DNA from: Bacteroidota bacterium
Lineage (GTDB): Bacteria; Bacteroidota; Bacteroidia; UKL13-3
Assembly: GCA_034439655.1 (NCBI GenBank)
Contig: JAWXAU010000150.1
Span: 1-35,039, forward strand
Length of the DNA stretch: 35,039 nt
Reading direction: 5' to 3'
In this document: positions 3,885 through 7,206 of the stretch, in pieces
Position numbering within the stretch: position 1 is the stretch's first letter
Layout: each line of letters opens with the position of its first letter
The notes under the pieces: model-generated
The model's input: the letters and a program-made list of their open reading frames with translations, nothing else
Databases searched by the model: none
What the model was told of the DNA's origin: nothing
Translations under genes and position numbers: made by a program

Positions 3885-4559
3885 ATGAATTACGGAAAAG
3901 AATTTCACAAGTATGCCACCAAACATCATGGCATTAGCAGTTTGAAAACAGAAACTTATATTACTAGCGAGGTTAGAGACATGACCCGCACCGTGATAGA
4001 AGAACGCCCCGTCAACTTCCGCGAGATTGACGTATTCTCTCGTTTGATGGTAGATCGCATTATTTTCTTAGGGACACAAGTAGATGATTATTTTGCCAAT
4101 ATTATACAAGCACAATTACTATTTCTACAGTCGATAGATGCTAAACGCGACATACAAGTATATATAAATAGCCCAGGTGGTTCAGTATATGCTGGCTTGG
4201 GTATATATGATACTATGCAATATATAACACCAAGCGTAGCAACTATATGCACAGGTATGGCAGCCAGTATGGGTGCGGTATTGATGTGTGCTGGCGACAA
4301 AGGAAAACGTGCTGCACTTAAACATAGCCGTATCATGATTCACCAACCTATGGGTGGAGCACAAGGCCAAGAAAGCGATATTGAAATCACTGCCCGCGAA
4401 ATCAAGAAATTAAAAAGAGAATTATACGAAATTATCGCTACACACTCAGGCCAACCCTACGAAAAAGTAGAAGCTGATAGTGACCGCGATTACTGGATGA
4501 CTGCTCAAGAAGCCAAAGATTATGGCATGATTGACGAGTTATTAGTGAAGAATAAATAA
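3885..4559 (+). CDS. clpP: ATP-dependent Clp protease proteolytic subunit ClpP
   Basis: 224 aa. The serine-protease triad is visible: S128 in [11 protein letters not shown]153 in [10 protein letters not shown], and D202 in DSDRDYWM. The oxyanion glycine loop [10 protein letters not shown] (about 95-104) and the helix-forming heptamer interface are conserved. The N-terminal extension of about 25 residues before the conserved core suggests a processed propeptide. It would form the double-heptamer peptidase chamber fed by ClpX or ClpA. It sits directly downstream of tig and is followed by a strong palindrome at 4578-4615. The clpX gene that commonly follows in this phylum is not here; an unrelated cassette occupies that place. 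Confidence 0.96.
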
Positions 4560-4577
4560 TATACATATAAATTGTAA

Positions 4578-4615
4578 AAAGCACCTTTTATTATTCGAAT
4601 AATAAAAGGTGCTTT
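4578..4615. terminator. 38-bp perfect palindrome ending the tig-clpP operon
   Basis: A perfect dyad with 19-bp arms meets at TTCGAA (centre 4596/4597) and is bounded by AAAGCACC and GGTGCTTT. It lies 18 bp after the clpP stop. Only a short T run follows, so it is a terminator by position and stem strength rather than by a long U-tract, and it could work in both directions. Confidence 0.75.
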
Positions 4616-4726: not shown

Positions 4727-4734
4727 TAACTTTG
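4727..4734 (+). promoter_or_regulatory. -7 box of the TIGR04255-like cassette
   Basis: TAACTTTG matches the Bacteroidota -7 consensus TAnnTTTG; no clear -33 TTTG is seen. Transcription would begin around 4740. The TTG at 4732 lies inside the box and cannot be the start codon if this promoter is real, which favours GTG at 4759. Confidence 0.6.
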
Positions 4735-4758
4735 TTGCGTTTACTATTAAGTTTTCTT

Positions 4759-5484
4759 GTGCAATATTCTAATAACCATTTAATTGAAGTAAGTTGTGGG
4801 TTTGAGTTTCCAGAGGAAACTACTACTTGGGATAGTACATATTTTGGGCGTTACTTTGAAAAAATTAAATCACTGGGTTTTAATCAACGTACTGAAAGAA
4901 AGGGGGTTCAAATTAAGTTTGAAGCAAATTTGATAGATGCGAGCAAAGAACCTTTTACAACTTCGCAAGCCGAAGATCAAGTAATTTTCAGGGATGAAGA
5001 AAAAGGATTAGCTGTTCTTATAGGAAAAGGAAGAATTTCCTTCCATTGTGTTAAGAACTATATGGGATGGGAGGGATTTCTTAATGAAGTTATTAAACCA
5101 TATTCAGAACTTTATAAAACTCTTGATCTTGGAAATGGTAAGCGACAATGCAGTATAGTTTATTTGAATAGATTTAATAAAGAAGTAGGAGATGGCTTGT
5201 CAGATTATTTTACTTTAATTAGCCCTTTGGAACAAAAATTTGGTGCGGAAATCATTACTTCTGTTCAAAGAATTATCTCCAATAAAAATAATTTATTGAT
5301 TTCAAAATTAAATTCTCAAGTTATACAAAATATACAAAATATCAATTTAGAATGTGGTGCGGTTTGTATTGATGAGGAATGCATAAAAAATAATGATTGG
5401 ATTTATCAAGCAAACCAAACGCATGAACCAATTTTTAATTTCTTCAAGGCAATAACTACAGATAATTTAAGGAATACCTTATAA
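4759..5484 (+). CDS. TIGR04255-like family protein, function unknown
   Basis: 241 aa from GTG 4759 (the frame is open from TTG 4732). The N-terminus HLIEVSCGFEF, then TTWD, then KGVQIKFE, and the mid-protein YLNRFNK recall the TIGR04255 family, a sporadically distributed family of about 250 aa whose members begin with a similar 'P-x-V-E-V-x-C-x-F-x-F' strand. No enzyme motif, membrane segment or signal peptide is evident, so it should be a soluble cytoplasmic protein. It is the first gene of a tight three-gene operon (next gene 8 bp downstream). GTG is chosen because TTG 4732 falls in a promoter -7 box and because GTG gives a start close to the conserved strand. Family assignment is from memory of the pattern, not a search. 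Confidence 0.6.
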   Translation: MQYSNNHLIEVSCGFEFPEETTTWDSTYFGRYFEKIKSLGFNQRTERKGVQIKFEANLIDASKEPFTTSQAEDQVIFRDEEKGLAVLIGKGRISFHCVKNYMGWEGFLNEVIKPYSELYKTLDLGNGKRQCSIVYLNRFNKEVGDGLSDYFTLISPLEQKFGAEIITSVQRIISNKNNLLISKLNSQVIQNIQNINLECGAVCIDEECIKNNDWIYQANQTHEPIFNFFKAITTDNLRNTL

Positions 5485-5492
5485 AAATAATA

Positions 5493-5840
5493 ATGGATAT
5501 TACATCTCTTATAGCACCATCACACCAATATGATAAAAGTATTTTTAATCATATTTCAATTAAAAAAGAATATGCAATTCAAACATCCATATCTGAAAAA
5601 ACTTTGGATTACATGATGAGTGTGTACAATAGGAATGACAATTCAAATCCTTTTAATTTTGTTTATTCACTTTTCGATTCTCAACAAATTGGCTTTGCAA
5701 AAAATCAAAGTACTATACTTGGCTTAGCAAATGAAATGTTTGCGGGCTCAAGATTGCTTAATAATTTCGAGACAGAGGCATTGATGGAAACATTCTCTCG
5801 TTTGAGTATAAAAAAACCAACACTTCTAGGTAGAAAATAA
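5493..5840 (+). CDS. Hypothetical protein, second gene of the cassette
   Basis: 115 aa, family not recognised. It looks soluble: it starts MDITSLIAPSHQYDK, has a mixed charged/aromatic centre (NPFNFVYSLFDSQQIGFAKN) and ends in a basic tail (KKPTLLGRK). No signal peptide, membrane segment, HTH or metal site can be seen. ATG 5493 follows the stop of the TIGR04255-like gene by 8 bases, and its own stop is 10 bases before the third gene, so the three should be made together, most likely as partners in one complex or pathway. Its small size between two larger proteins would suit an adaptor or regulator, which is inference. Confidence 0.65.
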   Translation: MDITSLIAPSHQYDKSIFNHISIKKEYAIQTSISEKTLDYMMSVYNRNDNSNPFNFVYSLFDSQQIGFAKNQSTILGLANEMFAGSRLLNNFETEALMETFSRLSIKKPTLLGRK

Positions 5841-5850
5841 CATCTCTCTC

Positions 5851-6495
5851 ATGCCTTTTGGAGAAAATTTTGATTTAATCCTTCCTAAATATCTTGTGAA
5901 TCATGATAAAGCAAGATTGCAAGATGCGTTAAAGAAATTCATTCCAGATGGAGGCAATAAAAGAGGAGAAATAGATTATACAAATTTCTATAAAAATTCG
6001 AGTCAAACAGTTTTTTTACAATCAGACTTAATTAAAGAAATTAGGTATGCTAATTGGAATAATGAAAACTCAATTTATGAAAAGGAGTATATAAATGCAA
6101 TTATTATTTCTAATTCTTGCGATATTTCTTTTCAAAACGAGCATTCATATAATATAAAACAGTGTCTATTTGCTCCTTTAATAGATTTCAATGAATATCT
6201 AAATACTTTAAAAGCTAAAGGACACGATGCTGAAAAAATAAGTGCCGCTAGTCAAACTATTAAATCTCAATTGGTATCAAATATACTATATTTACCTAAT
6301 AATGAAAATGATAATAAAGAATATATTGTACTATTTGATAATATATTTTGGTTTCCTACAATTGAATTAAATTCTTACATAGAGCAAATGGAAGAAAATA
6401 AAATATCGTCTTTGGGGCTTTTTGGATATTATTTATTTATCTTAAAACTTTCATATCATTTATGCCGTTTACCCGATGAATATGATAATAGATAA
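5851..6495 (+). CDS. Hypothetical protein with SNSCDIS motif, third gene of the cassette
   Basis: 214 aa. A central hydrophobic strand leads into IIISNSCDIS (about residues 87-96), followed by CLFAPLIDF. It ends in an amphipathic/aromatic segment and LCRLPDEYDN. I loosely recall uncharacterised bacterial proteins with an S-Q/N-x-CDI core followed by an 'AP' strand and a C-terminal R-L-P; the Cys-Asp pair could be catalytic or metal-binding, but nothing here proves it. No signal peptide is seen; the LFGYYLFILKLSYHL stretch is hydrophobic enough to be a buried helix rather than a clear membrane span. Strongly A+T-rich, like its two partners. It is the last gene of the cassette; lolD follows after 57 bp. 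Confidence 0.65.
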   Translation: MPFGENFDLILPKYLVNHDKARLQDALKKFIPDGGNKRGEIDYTNFYKNSSQTVFLQSDLIKEIRYANWNNENSIYEKEYINAIIISNSCDISFQNEHSYNIKQCLFAPLIDFNEYLNTLKAKGHDAEKISAASQTIKSQLVSNILYLPNNENDNKEYIVLFDNIFWFPTIELNSYIEQMEENKISSLGLFGYYLFILKLSYHLCRLPDEYDNR

Positions 6496-6552: not shown

Positions 6553-7206
6553 ATGATAAAAGCAAGTAACATTACCAAAAAATTTGGGCAAATAGAAGTG
6601 CTACGTGGCATTGACGTTCACGTTAAAAAAAGTGAAGTCGTTTCTATTATAGGTGCTTCAGGTGCGGGCAAATCTACACTATTACATATATTGGGAACAT
6701 TGATGCCTACCGACGGTGGGAGTTTTAGTATTGATGGTATTGATGCACATTTATTAAAAGGTAGAAAACTCGATAAATTTAGAAACAGTAAAATCGGATT
6801 TGTATTCCAGTTTCACCAATTGATGCCCGAATTTACCGCTGCAGAAAATGCTGCTATCCCTGCCATGATTGCAGGACTCGGAAAAAAAGAAGCATTGGCA
6901 AAAGCTGCTATAATATTAGAACAACTTTCATTGGGTCACCGTTTGCAACACAAACCTTCAGAATTATCAGGAGGTGAACAGCAACGTGTGGCTGTAGCCC
7001 GTGCGTTAATCAATGACCCTGCGGTGGTTTTTGCGGACGAACCCACAGGAAATCTCGATACCAAAAACGCTACTGAGCTCCACGATTTATTTTTGGATTT
7101 GCGTGAACGCACGGGACAAACATTTTTAATAGTAACACATAACGAAGCCTTGGCTAGCAAGAGCGACCGCATATTGCATATTGAAGATGGAATGATTGTT
7201 GGGTAG
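6553..7206 (+). CDS. lolD: LolD-like ABC transporter ATP-binding protein
   Basis: 217 aa, a complete single ABC domain. Walker A is GASGAGKST (34-42), the Q-loop is FVFQFHQLMPEFTA, the signature LSGGEQQR is at 138-145, and Walker B is VVFADEPTGNLD (158-169), followed by the switch histidine VTHNE. The EPTGNLDT and LMPEFTAxEN patterns place it in the LolD/MacB/FtsE group of short exporters. In LolCDE it powers release of lipoproteins from the inner membrane to LolA. No partner permease lies in the window, so the LolD call is by sequence class. No clear promoter box is visible in the 57-bp gap, so it may be read from the upstream cassette. Confidence 0.85.
   Translation: MIKASNITKKFGQIEVLRGIDVHVKKSEVVSIIGASGAGKSTLLHILGTLMPTDGGSFSIDGIDAHLLKGRKLDKFRNSKIGFVFQFHQLMPEFTAAENAAIPAMIAGLGKKEALAKAAIILEQLSLGHRLQHKPSELSGGEQQRVAVARALINDPAVVFADEPTGNLDTKNATELHDLFLDLRERTGQTFLIVTHNEALASKSDRILHIEDGMIVG

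Follow-up and report, generated by a model that had tools for sequence, protein, structure and literature searches.

Between clpP (3885-4559) and lolD (6553-7206) of the 35,039-nucleotide stretch of Bacteroidota DNA analysed here, referred to below as the window, lie three small same-strand ORFs (Table 1). Their layout raises the question of whether they belong to the clp locus by descent or were brought in as a unit, and what such a unit would do.

The cassette and its insertion site

The ORFs and their intergenic gaps of exactly 8 and 10 bp agree with the initial annotation, as does the composition of the cassette, which has a G+C content of 28.4% compared with 36.1% in the remainder of the window. 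The 38-bp terminator that had been placed after clpP is a perfect inverted repeat, folding with an MFE of -20.6 kcal/mol (z -7.7). The cassette had also been credited with its own TAACTTTG box, and this holds only in part: the box sits at a sensible location and is plausible as a promoter, but since its motif is present at 3 sites in the window, close to the 2.6 that chance alone would give, it is not significant by count and on its own provides no evidence. GTG 4759 is a likelier start for gene 1 than TTG 4732, because the family match of the protein begins there and 4732 falls inside TAACTTTG. A search for Rfam RNAs in the cassette returned none, and neither direct repeats flanking the insertion nor transposase marks were found.

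Table 1 Features of the cassette and its upstream region (positions in the window)
Feature	Position	Strand	Description
Inverted repeat, clpP-cassette	4578..4615		Perfect 19+19 nt, terminator-like hairpin without a long T run
TAACTTTG	4727..4734	+	Bacteroidota-type -7 box (TAnnTTTG), ~25 bp upstream of the likely GTG start
Gene 1	4759..5484 (alternative start 4732)	+	TIGR04255 family protein, 241 aa from GTG
Gene 2	5493..5840	+	115 aa, without family match
Gene 3	5851..6495	+	214-aa phrog_4575 protein, predicted divergent MazF/PemK-like barrel

The positions of clpP and lolD were determined in the source genome and 14 relatives. In one congener (G002) the two genes are only 84 bp apart and the site is empty, while in another (G001) they enclose a different insert of ~0.5 kb, which suggests that the clpP-lolD gap is an insertion-prone spot. 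The G001 insert (L175, G001:C263) encodes a small membrane-protein-like ORF. The cassette had been described as holding the position usually taken by clpX. This is correct for four other genera of the family, in which clpX adjoins clpP, but not for the two congeners examined, where lolD is the next conserved gene after clpP; in the source genome clpX is located on a different contig.

Gene 3 is absent from all 57 related genomes searched, and of 395 genomes surveyed from the phylum, 4 have a member of its family, phrog_4575, the source genome among them. For each of the three window proteins the closest relative is found at one and the same locus (L019) in a Cyclobacteriaceae MAG, with 55-59% identity for genes 1 and 3 and 45% for gene 2. 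Horizontal acquisition is indicated because the site is empty in the congener, the 57 relatives lack gene 3, and distant relatives in the same gene order are located at unrelated sites and in prophages. Judged from these comparisons of sequence, the cassette is a compact accessory module that was acquired horizontally into the clpP-lolD gap, much as the initial annotation had proposed. The observation it had named against itself, a fixed vertical part of the clp locus, is not what the genomes hold: G002 is empty, and neither clpP nor clpX lies near the cassette at any of 102 loci fetched from genomes and viruses.

Conservation and spread of the module

These loci, 60 in genomes and 42 on viral contigs, were retrieved by an alignment- or profile-based scan with gene 3, a single gene 3 sequence having recovered zero loci as a genome query, and genes 1 and 2 were then detected at the fetched loci with iterated profiles. 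As only gene 3 motifs were used for fetching, the co-occurrence of genes 1 and 2 is independent of the retrieval. The conservation of the motif stretches that were used is partly by construction, and the QGD and SN[ST]CD motifs had no part in the retrieval of the genome loci.

All three genes are present in the order 1-2-3 on one strand at 45 of the 60 genome loci and on 40 of the 42 viral contigs (25 non-redundant). Within this gene 3-based set the partners thus recur in the same order, and the separation of the partners from TIGR04255 proteins that had been named as evidence to the contrary was not seen. At six further genome loci (L020-L025) the gene 2 slot, which is occupied at every complete locus inspected, contains a diverged middle ORF, and contig ends truncate three genome loci. 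According to the record titles the module is found, sporadically, in Bacteroidota, alpha-, beta- and gammaproteobacteria, Desulfobacterales/Geobacter-type bacteria, Verrucomicrobia, Lentisphaerae, Fibrobacter, Hydrogenedentes, Cloacimonadota, Ignavibacteria, Chlorobi and Campylobacter/Helicobacter-type bacteria. Phages returned no tblastn match to the window TIGR04255 protein, although with a relative as query the same phages are retrieved.

The genes are tightly packed, with median gaps of -8 nt between genes 1 and 2 and, over 60 loci, of -0.5 nt between genes 2 and 3, so that a small coupled gene lies directly upstream of the putative toxin gene as in type II toxin-antitoxin operons. Between the three proteins the distance matrices are correlated (Spearman 0.55-0.70, against no more than 0.22 in permutations), to which shared locus ancestry contributes. 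In all 38 testable cassettes the G+C content is below that of the flanks, on average by 11 points. Genes 2 and 3 occur without a detectable TIGR04255 gene at L057, L058 and L070 and behind an unrelated protein at L041, L053 and L115, and therefore look like a core pair to which gene 1 is a swappable addition.

The source genome carries a second, diverged module at a contig end (G000:C205; L013, 9688-10793, minus strand), consisting of a TIGR04255-like C-terminal piece, a 121-aa gene and a 173-aa 'SQSCDL' gene whose family is homologous to gene 3 (prob 97.8). Beside prs (G000:C108; L014, 9276-10645) a TIGR04255 gene has decayed, its match being interrupted by two stops; after it come a 169-aa gene and a fragment similar to third genes of the 'IPQ/PVYLHF' type. 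The N-terminal part of another TIGR04255 gene runs off a contig end (G000:C138; L015, 8920-9379). The pieces on C138 and C205 were considered as a single gene, which was rejected as no sequence overlap between the contig ends was found.

Proteins encoded by the cassette

Gene 1 matches the NCBIfam family TIGR04255 with 78 bits against a cut-off of 30 (E 9.5e-22), over residues 11-249 as counted from TTG 4732 and profile positions 1-250 of 252; the resemblance noted at the outset is thus a full-length match above cut-off. The predicted structure (pLDDT 87) has a TBP-like fold with a duplicated beta-alpha-beta4-alpha arrangement, and its structural matches include TBP in the PDB as well as viral TBP/TFIID proteins. 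No SecB is found among the Pfam matches of 61 TIGR04255 members, and no paper in the open-access literature searched mentions the family.

Gene 2, which had been called unrecognised, retains that description: the window protein has no match in Pfam, NCBIfam or PADLOC and only chance-level ones in PHROGs, and no known antitoxin or DNA-binding domain was detected with these libraries. It is the least conserved of the three proteins, and across the set its C-terminal segment is conserved and its N-terminus variable. Of 81 distinct gene 2 sequences, 25 have a 19-residue hydrophobic stretch with a Kyte-Doolittle mean above 1.6, which the top examples carry close to the N-terminus; the window protein (0.53) and the L019 copy (0.55), to which it is most closely related, have none.

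The HMM search that the initial annotation had proposed places gene 3 in the uncharacterised phage family phrog_4575 (E 4e-45). When its AlphaFold2 model (pLDDT 88) was compared with the PDB using Foldseek, the top seven matches were all MazF or MazF toxin-antitoxin complexes (4mdx, 5cr2, 6l29, 7du4, 6kys, 5hjz and 7ewj; E 1.4e-3 to 0.2). The best of these, 4mdx, has an E of 1.4e-3, a probability of 1.00 and a TM of 0.67 on the target, with the qualification that for the models of both gene 3 and gene 1 E never reaches 0.001 and the query-normalised TM is ~0.3-0.4. Profile comparison points in the same direction, as hhalign of gene 3 against 35 PemK proteins gives a probability of 80 (P 1.4e-5), compared with 0.1-0.3 for genes 1 and 2. 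In this alignment QGD corresponds to RGD/RGE, SNSCDI...N to S...N, and APLI to APxT. Gene 3 is accordingly modelled as a PemK-type barrel, at borderline E, to which an N-terminal extension, an alpha-helical insert (a helical pair) and a C-terminal helix are predicted to be added.

MazF proteins depend for catalysis on an arginine of the RP motif and a threonine of the PIT motif. Both are replaced in gene 3, where the aligned positions (~81-82 and 111) are variable or hydrophobic, and neither gene 3 nor its 65 relatives match PF02452 at the Pfam gathering score. Since the catalytic residues and the Pfam score are both lacking, gene 3 is not classified as a MazF, and the loss of the arginine and threonine means that it could be a non-catalytic binding module. 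A different polar set is conserved, with Q57, D59, N88 and C90 invariant and D91 and N96 present in 65 of 66 sequences.

Related TIGR04255 modules and phage context

Of 395 genomes of the phylum, 24 encode TIGR04255 proteins, and at most of the inspected loci the TIGR04255 gene is combined with two others, a middle and a third one. At L129 the third gene encodes a genuine PemK (E 4e-13) with MazF/PemK matches in the PDB, and PemK proteins were also identified by profile at L122, L123, L130 and L131. The third gene of L121 is HEPN-like, with a weak match to a HEPN protein in the PDB (E 0.039), and is probably the source of the single HEPN_IX match obtained with PADLOC among 104 module proteins; its product is homologous to that of the third gene in Sulfurimonas phage SNW-1 (E 1e-5). 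Profile comparison of several other TIGR04255-linked third genes gave no similarity to MazF. At least three further uncharacterised types of middle and third gene pair follow TIGR04255 (L126/L128/L133/L139; L124/L135; L132/L136/L137), and the middle gene type of L128 has weak HEAT-repeat similarity.

The cassette of phage Dobby directly adjoins the portal gene gpQ and is thus located within the interval between gpA (primase/helicase) and gpQ, which is an antiviral hotspot of P2-like phages (Rousset et al., PMC9122126). The same study reports that a P2-related vibriophage has a hotspot between cI and integrase (PMC9122126), and in VW-6S the cassette is located between cI and integrase. Other prophage sites are beside antiterminator or lysis genes, within tail operons and ahead of terminase; placements outside annotated phages come from visual inspection of the protein sequences. 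A known PADLOC system was considered and rejected, as the window genes have no match in PADLOC 2.0.0 (2023) and the module proteins yield the lone HEPN_IX match. PADLOC models matched in neighbours number 217 near and 91 far from the cassettes. These counts are not used as evidence of defence-gene enrichment, since many models can be hit by a single protein and defence genes abound in the far set too. The possibility of a defence or toxin system, raised with caution in the initial annotation, is strengthened by the MazF-like predicted fold, by the PemK and HEPN-like third genes of the sister modules and by the location in the P2 hotspot.

Proposed function and alternatives

It is proposed, with somewhat better than even confidence, that genes 1-3 constitute a single, horizontally mobile operon, often carried by prophages, for a tripartite toxin-antitoxin-like system that is most likely directed against phages. 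Gene 3 would be a toxic effector with a divergent version of the MazF/PemK fold, probably acting on RNA, and its active site would consist of Q57, D59, N88, C90, D91 and N96 in place of the MazF arginine and threonine. Gene 2 would serve as the antitoxin or connector, its conserved C-terminal segment restraining gene 3 and its variable N-terminus being read by gene 1. As a sensor or stabiliser, the TBP-like gene 1 protein could then hold gene 2 in its bound state up to the point where a cue from infection dislodges it and gene 3 is released, a logic similar to that of CmdTAC. The conservation of the operon, its mobility, the predicted folds, the exchangeable first slot and the toxin folds in the third slot of sister modules are results of the computation, whereas we infer toxicity, its neutralisation, sensing and phage defence.

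Descent within the clp locus, or the chance adjacency of three unrelated ORFs, would account for genes that sit directly between clpP and lolD, and is extremely improbable given that the three genes are conserved together elsewhere, that one congener has an 84-bp gap and another a different 0.5 kb insert, and that gene 3 is missing from 57 relatives; a vertical clp-locus gene is excluded by that gap together with the absence of clpP and clpX from the other loci. A more serious, if still unlikely, alternative is that the module is non-toxic prophage cargo, which would exclude superinfecting phages by binding their nucleic acid or protein or would control phage or host expression, its MazF fold serving for binding only. 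Its occurrence in 25 non-redundant viral clusters at sites as varied as cI/integrase, antiterminator/lysis, tail, terminase and the P2 portal is compatible with this, as are a TBP-like gene 1 that may bind nucleic acid and a gene 3 devoid of MazF catalytic residues. However, the tight and conserved pairing of genes 2 and 3 and the PemK or HEPN-like equivalents of gene 3 better fit a toxin pair.

Within such a pair the roles might be reversed, so that gene 2 is the toxin and disrupts membranes through its N-terminal hydrophobic segment while gene 3, with its MazF fold, and gene 1, with its TBP fold, sense or inhibit it. The hydrophobic stretch in 25 of 81 sequences speaks for this arrangement, but the window and L019 copies do without it, gene 2 is the least conserved protein where gene 3 has an invariant polar set, and the sister modules place PemK or HEPN-like proteins in the third slot, all of which makes a gene 2 toxin rather improbable. 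More broadly, TIGR04255 could be the shared sensor of a large undescribed three-gene immune class, in which RNA-targeting effectors that can replace one another (PemK/MazF, HEPN, the SN[ST]CD barrel) are governed by a TBP-fold receptor and a small adaptor or antitoxin, the SN[ST]CD barrel being a new catalytic variant of the MazF fold; this wider reading is tentative, and falls a little short of probable.

Comparison with known systems

The TAC systems, CmdTAC and HigBA-SecB(TA) of M. tuberculosis (PMC11618068, PMC6377645), likewise consist of three small genes for a toxin, an antitoxin and a separate protein that may control the antitoxin, roles that are proposed here for the cassette. In CmdTAC, an anti-phage system, degradation of the antitoxin follows once a capsid protein has displaced the chaperone (PMC11618068). 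The additional component of the cassette is instead a TIGR04255 protein, with a predicted TBP-like fold and without a SecB match, and its effector is a predicted MazF-like barrel rather than an ADP-ribosyltransferase or HigB. A SecB-type TAC was therefore rejected, and the cassette is not classified as a TAC because SecB is lacking.

With MazEF/PemIK (PF02452) the cassette shares the predicted barrel, a weak but specific profile similarity (GD, S...N, AP) and a small gene immediately upstream. It differs in having no PF02452 match, in the replacement of the catalytic Arg/Thr, in the N- and C-terminal extensions and inserted helical pair, in the lack of a recognisable MazE-type antitoxin and in the presence of a third gene. 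The TIGR04255 modules of L122, L129, L130, L131, L121 and SNW-1 have the same first gene, followed by a middle and a third gene in the same order, but their third gene is a genuine PemK or HEPN-like and their middle genes show no recognisable relationship to gene 2. Gene 3 belongs to phrog_4575, a family without an assigned function; a literature search found no paper on this family, the operon partners are not described in the sources searched, and the family libraries searched do not describe the cassette as a system.

TIGR04255 has been a named but unexplained 'sporadic' family, and its place as the first gene of three-gene modules that can end in a toxin-fold protein gives it a testable role, in a module that is present in many phyla and in prophages, at one position within a known antiviral hotspot. 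If confirmed, the cassette would constitute a new class of defence, possibly with new RNA-targeting chemistry, and would add to the known tripartite toxin-antitoxin systems a type that combines a TBP-fold third component with a MazF-fold effector devoid of the MazF catalytic residues.
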